Assembly (NCBI GenBank): GCA_024400125.1
Contig: JAKSNG010000001.1
Coordinates: 1 to 64,000, forward strand
Source of the DNA: Paludibacteraceae bacterium
GTDB taxonomy: Bacteria; Bacteroidota; Bacteroidia; Bacteroidales; Paludibacteraceae
Reading direction: 5' to 3'
Length of the DNA stretch: 64,000 bases
Shown here: one piece after another, positions 16,383-51,291 of the stretch
Numbering within the stretch: the first letter of the stretch is position 1
How the letters are laid out: each line of letters opens with the position of its first letter
The notes under the pieces: generated by a model
What the model was told of the DNA's origin: nothing
Database searches by the model: none
What the model saw: only the letters and a program-made list of their open reading frames with translations
Made by a program: the position numbers and the translations under genes

Positions 16383-18446
16383 TTATTTTAAACTTTGTGC
16401 ATTTGCGTTATAAATCTTTCCATCTGGTAATGTAATATAAAATGTTCCATCTTGTATTACCTTCTTTGTTATAATGCTATTACCATAAGTTGGTTCAAGA
16501 CTTGAACTAATAGGAATTGCTTCGTATGTTGCGTAATATGAAGCATATCCTCTTGCTATAACAATTTCTGGTGTCCATCCAATAAATTGGTATGTATAGG
16601 TGTCGTCATTAGGTCGCGTTGGTGTCTCTCCTGTATAAACGGGAAGAGTTCCTTCTTCAACATCTGTAAGGCTAAGCAGCAATTCCCCATCCCAATTATA
16701 AAATGAAACAGTAAATTGTTGTTTAGAAGTTGTAAACTCTACTAATTTTGTATATAATGTTATTTGGGGATCATACATAGCGGTTACTGTATAAGTAAAT
16801 GTTGTTCCTGATTGCAAAGAAGAATATCGACGATACCAACCATTTCCCGTGAAGTTTGCATTTGAGACATTTTGGCAAGTGTAATCTGCTATACATTGAG
16901 AAAAATCGCCACTAAAACATTGTCCTTCTTCGTTTGAGACAAATGAGATTATTGTTTTTCCATCTTGTTTAACTTCATGCATATACAATGTTGCACCTTC
17001 TACTTCTGGCCACTCTAATGTGACTTCTGTCGGTTCATTGATAGTAACCTTAATATCAGATACTGCCGAAGTTTTTGCTTTAAATAGAGAGTTAAGTGTG
17101 ATGTAGTGACTTGATAAATAATCTGTCCATGGTTCTATTCTCTCATCGAAACTATTACTTATATACACGTGAACGGGATTTGATTGGTCATGTCTAACAA
17201 TAATACTACCACCATTCTTGTCCTCATCGTTCATACCATATAAACTTGTCAAAACATTTACATCATTTAATCCAAAACAATTTTTGAATGCACCAGCATA
17301 TTTTCGTACATCTTTTCCAACTACTATAGCAGACAGATTTCTACAATTGGCAAAAGCGTCATTCTCTATGAGTCTAACTTTTTGACCAATAATCACTGAC
17401 TTAAGATTTGTACAATTTTCAAAGGCAGTAGCGGAAATAGTATCAACACTATTGGGAATAATCACTGATGCAAATGAGCAATTCGCAAAAGCATTTTTTC
17501 CGATAAATGTTATGTTACTTGGAATTTTGAGTGAAGACATATTGCTATATTTGGCGAAAATGCCTTTCCCTAGTCTCGTTATATTGTTGGGAATAATGAT
17601 ATCCGTTAATGGTTGTCCATTTAGAAACAAGGTGGCGTTAGATAGAAGATTGCTATCAAAATCAATTGAACACCAAGCCGATAAATCATTTATATTAACA
17701 GTAGCAAGGCTGTCGCACTCATAAAAAGCATGATTACCAACGGATTGTATTCCTTTCCCCATTGTTAATGATTTTAAACCGTTACAACGTTCAAATGCGC
17801 TTTCTCCTATAAGTGTTACCTTATCGGGAATAATAATATTGCTCAAACTATCACAGTAGTAAAATGCCCCCCTTCTAATAGCAATCACGCTTTCAGGAAT
17901 ATTAATAGACTTTAATCTATGGCATTCATTGAATGCATTAGAACCTATCCATCGAGTCCCCTCTTTTATTGAATAAGTCTCTTTTGATTTGTCAATTACT
18001 CCCTGCAAATACGTGTCTGCATATCGAATATTATTTTCAACAGGTAAACTTATACAACCATTAAATGCACCGTCATCAATCTTATTTATGTTTTTATTAA
18101 TAGAAATTGTGGTTAATGCACTGCATTCGTCGAATGCATATTCGCCTATGCTGGTTACATATTTGCCTATCGTTACAGATGTTAGATTTTTGCAATTGGA
18201 AAAGGCATGACTACCAATGCGAGTTACTTTATAACCATTAACTTCATTAGGGATATCCGCGATAGTTACATCTGGTCCGTAATAAGTACGAAGATGACTA
18301 GCATCTTGATACCTCGCAAATGTTACTTCTGCAGTCATATCCCTTGAATTTAAATTGTAATATAAATTACCAATCTTTGTACTTGCAGATATTGTTCCTT
18401 CGTGCAAAATAATAGCAAAGAATAAAATTAAGAATTTAGTTTTCAT
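16383..18446 (-). CDS. Secreted leucine-rich-repeat (BspA-like) protein with InlB-type repeat and C-terminal tag
   Basis: 687 residues from ATG 18446. Signal peptide (about 22 residues), then about 14 LRR_5 units (to about residue 430, pattern AFxxCxxLxxVxIxxxVxxIG), a fibronectin-like segment (about 445-560), a Listeria-Bacteroides (InlB B-type) repeat (FTVSFYNWDG ... FIGWTPE, about 585-645) and a short tag near the end (VIQDGTFYITLPDGKIYNAN). The tag is a diverged member of the one shared by other secreted proteins here. Likely surface-exposed adhesin or scaffold. The 146-codon gene upstream may share its transcript. Confidence 0.85.
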   Translation of the reverse strand: MKTKFLILFFAIILHEGTISASTKIGNLYYNLNSRDMTAEVTFARYQDASHLRTYYGPDVTIADIPNEVNGYKVTRIGSHAFSNCKNLTSVTIGKYVTSIGEYAFDECSALTTISINKNINKIDDGAFNGCISLPVENNIRYADTYLQGVIDKSKETYSIKEGTRWIGSNAFNECHRLKSINIPESVIAIRRGAFYYCDSLSNIIIPDKVTLIGESAFERCNGLKSLTMGKGIQSVGNHAFYECDSLATVNINDLSAWCSIDFDSNLLSNATLFLNGQPLTDIIIPNNITRLGKGIFAKYSNMSSLKIPSNITFIGKNAFANCSFASVIIPNSVDTISATAFENCTNLKSVIIGQKVRLIENDAFANCRNLSAIVVGKDVRKYAGAFKNCFGLNDVNVLTSLYGMNDEDKNGGSIIVRHDQSNPVHVYISNSFDERIEPWTDYLSSHYITLNSLFKAKTSAVSDIKVTINEPTEVTLEWPEVEGATLYMHEVKQDGKTIISFVSNEEGQCFSGDFSQCIADYTCQNVSNANFTGNGWYRRYSSLQSGTTFTYTVTAMYDPQITLYTKLVEFTTSKQQFTVSFYNWDGELLLSLTDVEEGTLPVYTGETPTRPNDDTYTYQFIGWTPEIVIARGYASYYATYEAIPISSSLEPTYGNSIITKKVIQDGTFYITLPDGKIYNANAQSLK

Positions 18447-18487
18447 AATACTTTGAAGTTTTAATTGTATTAAACACATTATATAAA

Positions 18488-18928
18488 TTAATTGAAATAA
18501 CCATGTTCTCTTAAATAATGATAGAGTTGTCTTTCGGCAAATAGCACAAAGTCAATACGAGTCCAACCTGATAAAGCCATATTCCGTAAGTGAATAATAT
18601 TAAATAATTTTTCATAACGTTTAGAATATCGTTTGAGATTATCTTCAATATGTTTAGGGACATCTATTCCATTCCTTTCGCAAATATCTAGAGCATCTTT
18701 TATTAGCGTTTTTCTACCAACACCATGTTGATCCATTTGCCTTTGCAAATCTTTTAAGCGATTATAGACCTCATCAAAAGTGTGCATATTTTCCCATCCT
18801 TGATGCTCCTTAATTTGATTCCATGTGAAAGGAATCCGTGTATTAACTTTCTGAAATAAAAATGGCAATTGAATTTGGTCAACGTATTGTTGATACTTTT
18901 GTAAGAGATTGTTGAGGAATTCTTCCAT
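18488..18928 (-). CDS. Unrecognised cytoplasmic protein
   Basis: 146 residues, no signal peptide or membrane segment, helix-rich and charged. Motif-like parts are FTWNQIKEHQGWENMHTFDEV and a C-terminal Tyr-His-rich end. It resembles no family I can name. It sits 41 nt upstream of the LRR gene on the same strand and downstream of the small-RNA candidate, whose terminator should separate them. Confidence 0.6.
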   Translation of the reverse strand: MEEFLNNLLQKYQQYVDQIQLPFLFQKVNTRIPFTWNQIKEHQGWENMHTFDEVYNRLKDLQRQMDQHGVGRKTLIKDALDICERNGIDVPKHIEDNLKRYSKRYEKLFNIIHLRNMALSGWTRIDFVLFAERQLYHYLREHGYFN

Positions 18929-19003: not shown

Positions 19004-19032
19004 AAAAAAGTGGACTAAACTTTTTAATCCAC
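19004..19032 (-). terminator. Intrinsic terminator of the small-RNA candidate
   Basis: Minus strand: GTGGA...TCCAC arms (19028-19032 with 19010-19014), inner TAAA/TTTA pairs, then six T (19004-19009). Confidence 0.75.
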
Positions 19033-19162
19033 ATTTCGTCGGTATCGCCAAACACCTTTTGTCAATGAATCTTATAAAGTAAAGCCCACATTTATATAAT
19101 GTGAGCGTTGAACTTTACTTCTCATTGACATTTTGTTAAAATTGGCGATTTTACGAAATGTG
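19004..19162 (-). ncRNA. Candidate small RNA: 133-nt rod-shaped hairpin plus intrinsic terminator
   Basis: On the minus strand a long imperfect hairpin spans 19162 to 19030: CACATTTCGT/ACGAAATGTG at the base, then TCGCCAA/TTGGCGA, TGTCAATGA/TCATTGACA, AGTAAAG/CTTTACT and CACATT/AATGTG at the tip, separated by internal loops. A strong promoter (19168-19199) would start transcription at the base of the hairpin, and a terminator (19004-19032) ends it, giving an RNA near 159 nt. No reading frame fits inside. A rod with internal bulges recalls 6S RNA, but I cannot confirm the family; a palindromic mobile element is the alternative. Confidence 0.6.
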
Positions 19163-19167
19163 AGAAA

Positions 19168-19199
19168 CAAAGATAACGCTATATTATCTATTGTGCAAA
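19168..19199 (-). promoter_or_regulatory. Promoter of the small-RNA candidate
   Basis: Minus-strand TTTG (19196-19199), 20 nt, TATCTTTG (19168-19175): full consensus and spacing. Confidence 0.75.
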
Positions 19200-19224
19200 A
19201 ATCTTGCTTGTCTTATTCCATAGG

Positions 19225-19431
19225 CTACATTCTTTTTTCGTTATGATATTCATCTAAAACATACACAGGACTTTGAAAACACAATCCTGTTTCTTGTTGT
19301 GTGAGTGCATTAAACGTACGAGAACTACAAAAAGCATCCATCGCATCTCGCATTGCCATTCCTTCCTCCTCCATTAAGAGGACTACTACGTCACGAGTCA
19401 ATGACTCTATCATTAATGCTTCTTTATTCAT
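19225..19431 (-). CDS. Small protein of a DUF3990 cassette (third gene)
   Basis: 68 residues, acidic N-terminal helix (LTRDVVVLLMEEEGMAMRDAM), then ETGLCFQSPVYVLDEYHNE. I recall small partners with an ETGLxxxSPxYVxxxL end next to DUF3990 genes in Bacteroidales, but cannot check. It overlaps the DUF3990 stop by ATGA (19428-19431), so translation is probably coupled. A role as antitoxin or accessory is inference. Confidence 0.6.
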   Translation of the reverse strand: MNKEALMIESLTRDVVVLLMEEEGMAMRDAMDAFCSSRTFNALTQQETGLCFQSPVYVLDEYHNEKRM

Positions 19432-19898
19432 TTTCGTTTTAGTAAGGATAATGCTCGCTCTGTTCCAAAAAAGTATTGCATCGTCACTTGATGAAATTTG
19501 ATTTCTTCTAAAAACTGTAACTTGGTTATGAAACCCTCAGTATATCTACGAATCTGAAAACCTATGGTATCGTCTGCTATTGGACCAATTACAATATCAT
19601 AATTGTGTGACGATGAATGATGCTTGTTTTGCCGGTTGAGTAAAACAAAATCAGCCCACTTTTCTGAATACGAATCAAAACGCAGAACTTTTAGTTGTTG
19701 TAGATCTTCTTCCTTAAAATCATACACTTGTACGACAGAACTACCTTCCCCGTATTGACGAAATTTACGCTCGGCTTGACGAATAGCCACTTGCTTGTTG
19801 TCGGTGAGATAGAACCCATATCCAAAGTCTTTCCCAACTCGACTCTTATTCAAAAGTATTTGCTGAAAATCAATATTTGTGCCGTGATACAAAATCAT
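19428..19898 (-). CDS. DUF3990 family protein, ADP-ribosyltransferase-like
   Basis: 156 residues. It starts with MILYHGTNIDF and continues with GKDFGYGFYLTDNKQVAIRQ, the hallmark N-terminus of DUF3990 and typical of ADP-ribosyltransferase folds, where the His-Gly-Thr strand and a following Tyr bind NAD. A middle block (DFVLLNRQ ... YDIVIGPIADD) and an RRYTEGFITKLQFL end fit the family. A third catalytic residue cannot be assigned by eye. It sits between two small genes with ATGA overlaps at both ends, a layout expected of toxin-antitoxin-type systems. The target is unknown. Confidence 0.75.
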   Translation of the reverse strand: MILYHGTNIDFQQILLNKSRVGKDFGYGFYLTDNKQVAIRQAERKFRQYGEGSSVVQVYDFKEEDLQQLKVLRFDSYSEKWADFVLLNRQNKHHSSSHNYDIVIGPIADDTIGFQIRRYTEGFITKLQFLEEIKFHQVTMQYFFGTERALSLLKRK

Positions 19899-20119
19899 GC
19901 CAAATACCCTCCCATACGTTTACAGTAAATTGTGACATCCTCAACTGCCTCATCATAAGATAAGGTGTGTTCAACATCATAAAATTCCTCCACAAAATCC
20001 AGACCTTTGAATTGTTGCAAATAGAGATAGGCTTGCTGCAACGACAAATGGTGTGCAACAGCAAATTCTGATATTAGCGCAATCAGATAATTCAAACGGT
20101 CTTTAATAGATTTACTCAT
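19895..20119 (-). CDS. DUF3791 family small protein (first gene of the DUF3990 cassette)
   Basis: 74 residues, helical. The pattern LIALISEFAVAHHLSLQQAYLYLQQFKG ... FYDVEHTLSYDEAVEDV matches DUF3791, commonly found directly upstream of DUF3990 genes. The stop overlaps the DUF3990 start (ATGA, 19895-19898). It is first in the transcript, as antitoxins often are. The frame of 19870-20064 is a shadow. Confidence 0.72.
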   Translation of the reverse strand: MSKSIKDRLNYLIALISEFAVAHHLSLQQAYLYLQQFKGLDFVEEFYDVEHTLSYDEAVEDVTIYCKRMGGYLA

Positions 20120-49108: not shown

Positions 49109-49218
49109 TTTATAAAACATAACATAATTAAACATAATATAGGCAAAAAGAGAAGTAAAACAGGTGCGGGGATGACCCTGCAAAGACATAATTAAATTAA
49201 GCGTTGTAAGCCAAACTT

Positions 49219-49382
49219 GATCTTTTGAAACTTCGACACTTTCAAAAAATCAATTACTTATTCAAGTACGGTTTTTGCACGCTCACGTGGTGCGTGAGTT
49301 TTTCCGTGTTTATTTGAATAAGTAAGGTAGTCGAAGACCTCAAAAGATCAAATGAAGCGAACGAAAAAGTTCACGCTTTTTT
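49219..49382 (+). ncRNA. Second rod-shaped hairpin with terminator, candidate small RNA
   Basis: A 131-bp dyad: GATCTTTTGA/TCAAAAGATC (49219-49228 with 49340-49349), CTTCGAC/GTCGAAG, ACTTATTCAA/TTGAATAAGT and an apical CTCACG/CGTGAG hairpin. A terminator-like AGCG-AAC...GTT-CA-CGCT with six T ends at 49382. The architecture matches the candidate at 19004-19162, and both carry ACGCTCAC on the ascending arm near the tip. A matching promoter is not evident. The rest of 49109-49452 holds no gene. Confidence 0.5.
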
Positions 49383-49452
49383 GTGCATGTATATGAACGA
49401 AAGTAGAAAGTAATATAACATATTTATTAACCAATTAAAAATTTTTACGATT

Positions 49453-51291
49453 ATGAAAAACAAATTCAAATTTTTAGCATTAGCCATAATGGCATTGCTG
49501 AGTGTTAATGTGTGGGGTGCAGATGTAGCGCATGATTTTGCGCAGAGTATTGAGAAACTACTGAATAATAACGCAAGTATTTCCGGTATTAATATTTCAG
49601 AGCAGAGTTATGCCATCAAAGAAGTTAGGATTGTATGTCGTTATAATAAGACAATAGATCCAGCAGTTACGATAAGTGTCTCTGTTGGCGGCACTTCTTG
49701 GGGAACACAAACGGTAGGTAATAATTTTAATGGTACGAAGACATTTTCTGGAACAGCAAAGAAGGGTGCTGTTGTGATATCTTTTGCAAACAATTGTGGT
49801 TCTGGTACTGGTAAAGGAACTTTTTATGTAACTAATGTTCAATTGGTTGAAGGGTCTTCTGCTCCAAAAGTTGAAACGTCAATTACTCTTTCTCAGGCAG
49901 GTAATGAAAGTACCGTTTCAGGAACATACTATGTGGGGGATTCATACACATTACCTTCTACGACGAGTGCGACTTGCGGAGACAAGGAGTTTGTAGGTTG
50001 GAGTACTGTTGCAATTCCTACACCAGGCAGCAAACCAACTTCCAACTATTATGACAAGGGGGCTAGCGTGACTTTGGCTGCGAATAACACTTTCTATGCA
50101 GTCTTTGCAGATGCAAATAGTAGTGGCGCTGCAACTTCTAAAACATTGAGTTTTACCTATAATTCACATGCAGGTTGGACAATCTCAACCTGTACCGATA
50201 AAACCTCGTATTATATAATAAATACAAATGGATCAATTGTATCGCCCACTTTTGATGTTTCAAATATTACGCAAATTACTGCTAATTGTAGAACATTTGG
50301 AGGAGCGTCATATAATACGATTAATGTTAAGTGTGAAGGAACGACATTGGGAACGATAACAGCAGCAAGTAGTTCTCTTGCAAACGCGAATATCTCTTTT
50401 GCGAGTCCTAAACCTTCATTGTCTGGAACGAAATCATTAACATTCTCTTCGACAACTACTACTACCGCAAATGGTCCAGGTGTCGCTTCAATCACGATAA
50501 CCTATTCTGTCCCCTCTGTCACTTACTCCAACTACACCACGACTTGTGTTTCTTGTACCGCAATTTCGCCGACGTTGTCTTATACGGCAGCGACTACGAT
50601 TGGACAAGTGCTGAATCCCACATTGGATAAGAAAGGAAGTTCGGGCGCAGTTACTTATTCTATTAAATCGGGTGGTTCGTACGCATCTATCAACGCAAGT
50701 ACTGGTGCATTAACTTGTTCTGCCACAGGTACAGTAACGGTTCAAGCTACAATCGCAGCTGCTGGTGACTATTGCGATGGCACAGCAACTTCAAATGCAA
50801 TAACTATTTCCGAACCATCTTATACTATTACAGCAACCAAAAATGATGCCTCATTAGGAAATGTATCATTGTCTGGAAAAGTGATTACTGCCACACCAAA
50901 TGCTTGCGTCGGTTATGATGCCAATTCTGCTTACACAGTTACTTCCGGAAGTGCTACAGTTAGTCAAAGTGGCAATAAATTTACCGTTACTCCTTCTTCT
51001 AATTGTACGATTTGTATTAACTTTGATGAATTGGAGAAGGATACCTACGTGGACAACTTGCATGGTAATACTACCATTGAGAAATGTGGCTCATACACAG
51101 CCCCATCATTAGATGATGCAGCTAAAGTTACTGAAGGAAACTGCGATGTGGTTCACTACCACTTTGCCGGTTGGGTAACTAAGACCATTTCTACCGGTAC
51201 TACTGATGCTCCTTCAGAAATGATTACGGCTGGAACAAACATGAACTCTACTGGAGAAAAATATATTGCTGTTTGGGCAAAGGAAGAGTAG
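49453..51291 (+). CDS. Secreted Ser/Thr-rich multidomain protein, probably truncated at the 3' end
   Basis: 612 residues. Signal peptide (about 22 residues), a beta-rich domain with repeated SVGGTSWGTQT-type strands, an InlB-like repeat (about 150-220, with FVGWSTVAIPTP and AVFAD), further domains (about 225-360, 365-460), and a last InlB-like half repeat ending KYIAVWAKEE. Sibling proteins end with the short tag; this one stops within a repeat and has none, so the 3' end may have been lost. Function unknown. Confidence 0.72.
   Translation: MKNKFKFLALAIMALLSVNVWGADVAHDFAQSIEKLLNNNASISGINISEQSYAIKEVRIVCRYNKTIDPAVTISVSVGGTSWGTQTVGNNFNGTKTFSGTAKKGAVVISFANNCGSGTGKGTFYVTNVQLVEGSSAPKVETSITLSQAGNESTVSGTYYVGDSYTLPSTTSATCGDKEFVGWSTVAIPTPGSKPTSNYYDKGASVTLAANNTFYAVFADANSSGAATSKTLSFTYNSHAGWTISTCTDKTSYYIINTNGSIVSPTFDVSNITQITANCRTFGGASYNTINVKCEGTTLGTITAASSSLANANISFASPKPSLSGTKSLTFSSTTTTTANGPGVASITITYSVPSVTYSNYTTTCVSCTAISPTLSYTAATTIGQVLNPTLDKKGSSGAVTYSIKSGGSYASINASTGALTCSATGTVTVQATIAAAGDYCDGTATSNAITISEPSYTITATKNDASLGNVSLSGKVITATPNACVGYDANSAYTVTSGSATVSQSGNKFTVTPSSNCTICINFDELEKDTYVDNLHGNTTIEKCGSYTAPSLDDAAKVTEGNCDVVHYHFAGWVTKTISTGTTDAPSEMITAGTNMNSTGEKYIAVWAKEE

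Follow-up and report, generated by a model that had tools for sequence, protein, structure and literature searches.

The window analysed here, a stretch of 64,000 nucleotides from a Paludibacteraceae bacterium, contains at positions 19004-19199 a long imperfect hairpin with a promoter-like block on one side and a terminator-like structure on the other. The question raised by this locus is whether such an arrangement is an RNA gene in its own right or part of a larger transcript. An earlier note, made from the letters alone, had taken it for a free-standing small-RNA gene, possibly with a 6S-like function. We consider it more probable (about 0.72, as judged from comparative sequence analysis) that the element is a cis-acting 5′ leader belonging to a phylum-wide family of transcription attenuators with a four-segment logic.

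The element in the window

The RNA element is carried by the minus strand, on which the long bulged rod corresponds to window positions 19162-19030 (Table 1). The folding energy of 19004-19199 on this strand is -62.4 kcal/mol, vs -32.0 kcal/mol for shuffled sequences (z = -8.1; plus strand z = -6.3), and the imperfect hairpin described earlier is thus real. No ORF of 60 aa or more in the ORF list of the window lies on the rod, in agreement with the view that no coding frame explains the pairing. At 19032-19010 (-), a terminator-like 10-bp hairpin, GTGGATTAAA-AAG-TTTAGTCCAC, is followed by U6 at 19009-19004, so that the intrinsic terminator proposed for the RNA end is present in the sequence, with termination itself predicted. 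The 3′ arm of this hairpin is also complementary to segment 3 (duplex of -16.4 kcal/mol in the window copy), and the sequence of segment 1, AAGCGUUAGCUUUAUUCUUG, is complementary to the ascending strand of the rod tip.

On the same strand as the rod, the U run is followed after 75 nt by a 146-aa ORF, with its start at 18928 (-). The protein that it encodes has no Pfam match, and the next gene (16383-18479) encodes a BspA-type LRR protein (Pfam LRR_5). Directly 5′ of the element, at 19225-20119 (-), lie a DUF3791/DUF3990 (ART-like) gene pair and a 68-aa ORF, which together look like a toxin-antitoxin operon; RelE/YafQ-like small genes precede other genus copies too. That the copies generally lie 3′ of toxin-antitoxin operons was considered and rejected, as it holds for several genus copies and not in general. 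The window also holds a second, diverged copy on the plus strand, with a U run at about 49377-49382 (+) and a segment 4, AAAAAGTTCACGC, that is complementary to GCGTGAGTTTTT at the rod tip.

Table 1. Positions of the leader elements and neighbouring features in the window.
Feature	Position	Strand	Basis or remark
Rod RNA	19030..19167	-	Fold, covariation, model match 143.6 bits
P1	19162-19153 / 19039-19030	-	Fold and covariation
P2	19149-19142 / 19051-19044	-	Fold and covariation
P3, then apical helix	about 19130-19121 / 19069-19060	-	Fold and covariation
Segment 1 (5′ element), complementary to segment 2	19162..19182	-	Duplex with ascending strand -15.9 kcal/mol (window copy)
Segment 2, ascending strand of rod tip	19098..19123	-	Pairs with segment 1 or 3; both coevolve
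Segment 3, descending strand of rod tip	19068..19092	-	Pairs with segment 2 (antiterminator) or 4 (terminator)
Segment 4 and putative terminator	19004..19032	-	Terminator scan
Downstream ORF, 146 aa, presumed controlled gene	18488..18928	-	ORF list
Promoter-like block TTTG-N20-TATCTTTG	19168..19199	-	-33 at 19199-19196, -7 at 19175-19168
Mini-ORF ATG-GAA-TAA in conserved box GCCTATG	19213..19221	-	Box comparison across copies
Second, diverged leader copy	49213..49390	+	R2 match 46.6 bits, E = 6e-8 in window
ORF downstream of second copy, 612 aa, N-terminal signal-like stretch	49453..51291	+	ORF list

Copies and conserved structure

Within the genus, BLAST identified dispersed full-length copies, mostly 79-85% identical and with unrelated flanks. 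A first covariance model (R1) found 27 strong copies and many weaker ones in the genus. A second model (R2), built from 39 copies, gave 11 copies in the window's own genome and matches in 168 of 178 same-genus genomes. Order-wide, R2 matched in at least 152 of 393 genomes and at least 93 of 206 genera (seven candidates per genome scored), and phylum-wide in 39 of 395 genomes at E up to 1e-5; the genomes sampled are mostly metagenome-assembled, the E-values are rough, and the copies inspected by eye have a common architecture. Eight genomes searched in depth contain 18, 9, 12, 6, 14, 8, 28, and 16 copies, respectively (range 6-28). In four genomes (G449, G256, G529, and G386), several copies are found no more than about 500 nt from a contig end, which would suit a location close to repeated or rearranging DNA.

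The covariance search that had been suggested as a check on the small RNA thus returned a multi-copy family with heavily covarying pairs. In the alignment of 39 copies, which was fitted to the earlier model and leans towards the structure for that reason, 92.9% of the cells are paired and two-sided changes occur in 42 of the 46 pairs, a result matched by 0 of 500 shuffles. The number of cells with two-sided changes is 300, vs 84.5 in shuffles, and the covariation score is 0.482 vs 0.172. This signal covers P1, P2, P3, the apical helix, and the 3′ hairpin, and it collapses when the alignment is slid. Two-sided changes were already seen in 11 pairs of an earlier nine-sequence alignment, which was built with no structure as input. 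Single-stranded motifs are conserved as well, namely AAA and (A)ACC around P2, with AATTT and GGTGTT beside this helix. Judged from these alignments, the rod is a structured RNA under selection on base pairing, and the conservation of pairing asserted in the earlier note is borne out.

Position upstream of genes

Of the 75 testable copies in the order-wide sample, 72 are followed within 250 nt by the start of a same-strand ORF of 60 aa or longer (median distance 62 nt; short ORF calls are mechanical), and the genus copies are alike, nearly all of the 27 close ones being directly upstream of a same-strand ORF. Since this placement is found both in the copies from other genera and in the close ones, we assign the element to the 5′ leader of an mRNA; the window copy has its own same-strand ORF downstream, and the proposal of a free-standing small-RNA gene is not supported. 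A U run (at least six T in eight) is present at the 3′ end of 75 of 78 copies, vs 29% of control stretches.

The genes that follow the leaders appear to be mostly those of secreted proteins or lipoproteins, plus restriction and defence genes. By a crude score, an N-terminal hydrophobic stretch is found in 50 of 72 downstream proteins vs 12 of 47 upstream control ORFs. The downstream Pfam matches are scattered over surface families (LRR_5, OMP barrel, T9SS tail, PEGA, BACON), a PLD-helicase, and restriction families, and there is no pathway common to these genes. Some weaker genus copies stand before DNA methyltransferase or restriction genes, as named from sequence reading. Diverged rods at four loci (L079, L080, L081, and L082) precede a DNA methyltransferase gene, behind which comes a type III restriction subunit, as well as further genes for DNA modification. 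At four other loci (L148, L159, L164, and L165), in four genomes, one PLD/SNF2-type helicase gene is located downstream of the leader.

Three alternative pairings

For 75 order-wide copies, the pairing energies of the segments were compared with those of shuffled sequences and of segments swapped between copies. The 1:2 pairing averages -15.8 kcal/mol (shuffled -7.3, swapped -12.6), the 2:3 pairing -20.8 kcal/mol (shuffled -9.4, swapped -16.4), and the 3:4 pairing -22.4 kcal/mol (shuffled -9.2, swapped -17.2), each with p = 0.0002, although the copies are related and such permutation p-values overstate independence. No coevolution was detected in these 75 copies for the pairings that do not belong to an attenuator (1:4, p = 0.70; 1:3, p = 0.77; 2:4, p = 0.24). 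Three mutually alternative pairings thus coevolve in these leaders, the last of them ending at the U run. Order-wide, segment 4 pairs with the descending strand of the rod tip at -20.3 kcal/mol vs -10.3 kcal/mol for shuffled sequences, and 62 of 77 copies beat all 50 shuffles. Hairpins formed locally at the U run do not exceed chance order-wide (-6.6 vs -7.3 kcal/mol shuffled), but in the genus set they do (mean -11.1 kcal/mol), 31 of 38 copies having one stronger than -8 kcal/mol.

From these pairings we infer both that termination occurs and which state is "on." In the proposed mechanism, the 2:3 pairing within the P1-P3 rod would keep segment 3 from segment 4, no terminator would form, and the gene would be transcribed. 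If segment 1 held segment 2, 3:4 would pair and end at the U run, so that transcription would stop and a short leader RNA would be released. On a northern blot, such a prematurely terminated leader would likewise appear as a short RNA, as would the small RNA proposed earlier.

Compared with folds in which its tip is missing, the rod gains about 30 kcal/mol in stability, and constrained folding yielded no equilibrium state that combines 1:2 with 3:4. Because the rod wins at equilibrium, the choice, if the switch is real, would be kinetic (made during transcription) or factor-driven. Candidate controlling signals are a ribosome, an RNA-binding or NusG-type protein, polymerase speed, or a ligand. 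The window's subfamily has gained a strong local hairpin just ahead of the U run, so that in the window copy transcription may stop by default; as this hairpin is compatible with most of the rod, constitutive termination would fit equally well. A rod extended by 1:4 end pairing, which appears in single minimum-energy folds, was rejected because 1:4 does not coevolve.

The upstream block and the possibility of trans-acting RNAs

The promoter-like block TTTG-N20-TATCTTTG is a full Bacteroidota sigma-AB consensus and is identical in nearly all close paralogues; the named records that have it in common with the close copies are Paludibacteraceae from horse faeces. An order-wide upstream alignment shows the block to be homologous to the ACATA..AAGCGTTAGCTTT block of other subfamilies, and TAnnTTTG boxes (-7), read by eye, are usually found about 60-85 nt upstream of P1. 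As TAnnTTTG stands upstream of GCCTATG..ACATA..AAGCGTTAGCTTT..ATTCTTG in most relatives, that block is probably transcribed there. The full-consensus promoter noted earlier is therefore present as a sequence, but its role is ambiguous: in the window's subfamily it could serve as a secondary promoter, or it could be a mere look-alike. A promoter in this subfamily and a transcribed block in the relatives may both hold.

The GCCTATG box, with its ATG, has a close match in 48 of 115 copies, and in 38 of these 48 the second or third codon is an in-frame stop. Stops at the two codons partly compensate for one another (p = 0.0009 in all copies, 0.016 order-wide), which is moderate evidence that the stop of this ATG-X-stop mini-ORF is itself kept. 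The mini-ORF could possibly act as a control element, with a ribosome there as the controller.

These upstream features bear on a different explanation, according to which the copies are a multi-copy family of independent trans-acting sRNAs, with individual promoters and terminators, whose place upstream of genes is due to chance. The consensus promoter and strong local terminator that flank the rod in the window's subfamily are what it would predict, as is the local hairpin stronger than -8 kcal/mol that reaches the U run in most genus copies, and families of paralogous sRNAs do exist in Bacteroides, such as FopS and GibS, which are multi-copy and have sigma-AB promoters (PMC11697453). However, chance placement does not account for an orientation and spacing to the ORF that are fixed in 72 of 75 copies, the coevolving alternative pairings are typical of attenuators, and other subfamilies have no local terminator and a promoter apparently further upstream. 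Identity with FopS or GibS was itself rejected on size and mode of action: FopS RNAs are 65-70 nt long and act in trans on susC mRNAs (PMC11697453), whereas the present RNA has a length of some 160 nt or more and lies in cis. We regard the trans-acting explanation as unlikely, with perhaps one chance in eight.

Relation to known leader RNAs

Just 3′ of the U run, several copies have the Rfam motif DUF805b (RF02914), which is placed in the stretch that separates the U run from the start codon. DUF805b is a cis-regulatory RNA of 35 nt that excludes the rod and occupies the place next to the U run of this leader. Six of the seven DUF805b sites in the window's own genome have a rod and U run upstream when inspected by eye, and four of them are model matches; there is no DUF805b match at the window element. 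The sites at L090, L091, and L093-L096 of this genome for the most part form the end portion of rod leaders. The rod leaders may thus explain DUF805b, an orphan cis-regulatory motif. A motif beside the start codon would also suit a cis leader that acts mainly on mRNA stability or translation (for instance through a protein on the rod), with a minor part for the U run, and the leader position and strongly conserved internal loops are compatible with such a role. The U run in 75 of 78 copies and the 3:4 coevolution that ends there point instead to transcription termination, and a leader of that kind seems to us improbable, at around one in ten.

The transcription attenuator that we favour resembles trp-type attenuators in its 1:2, 2:3, and 3:4 alternatives, with a U run between the last of these and the gene. 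It differs in that 2:3 here forms the end of a conserved rod of 130 nt (P1-P3), the downstream genes are many and unrelated, and a leader peptide enriched in a single amino acid is absent, its counterpart being at most the mini-ORF, which a minority of copies have 5′ of segment 1. By analogy, the element would work like a trp-type attenuator but would not be a trp leader. Riboswitches that use a terminator as their expression platform are similar in placing a conserved structured domain ahead of a terminator that can be switched. In the rod leaders, the strand in common is the distal tip rather than the basal P1 helix; the internal loops are conserved, but the downstream genes are diverse and without a common metabolite. 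RNAs of the EAR/LoaP or put type are structured leaders, before accessory operons, that are able to allow passage through terminators. The rod has no Rfam sequence match to them, and no antiterminator protein was identified. Flavo-1 RNA (RF01705) is likewise dispersed and multi-copy in Bacteroidota, but its model and sites differ, and it has no match in the window's own genome.

The dispersed palindromic transposable element (MITE-like, with a promoter) that the earlier note named as its own alternative is very improbable. Multiple dispersed copies of mostly 79-85% identity in unrelated flanks, several of them near contig ends, are what it would leave behind, but it is at odds with the fixed orientation and distance to the ORFs, and with the two-sided covariation in P1-P3 and the conserved loops across genera. 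The two end segments, 1 and 4, lack the coevolution expected of terminal repeats, and plasmid, phage, and viral collections gave no match by DNA similarity or exact pattern. A 6S RNA, as suggested by the bulged rod shape, can be practically discounted on the absence of any RF00013 match in the genome, a single RF01685 match that is sub-threshold and at another locus (G000:C34:21674), the 6-28 copies per genome, and the leader position in 72 of 75 copies. The RF01685 locus (L089, G000:C34:21674-21809; 6S-Flavo, 36.7 bits) is a candidate for the real 6S RNA of this genome.

No Rfam family reaches its gathering score at the rod, and a literature search, which was incomplete and leaves room for earlier unnamed reports, found no description of a rod leader family. 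The family is apparently undescribed, and no Rfam family covers the rod.

Implications

Beyond the window copy, we tentatively suggest, at somewhat less than even odds, that these leaders are a Bacteroidota-wide attenuator class, absent from Rfam, that puts dozens of unrelated genes per genome (surface-protein, restriction, and other defence genes) under one common signal through the four-segment switch, and that spreads by duplication of the leader cassette before new genes. With copies in about 40% of the sampled genomes of the order and up to 28 in each, the class would rank among the commonest cis-regulatory RNAs. The hosts concerned are gut, oral, and environmental Bacteroidota, and the leaders would give a handle on the on/off switching of surface lipoproteins and restriction systems in this phylum.
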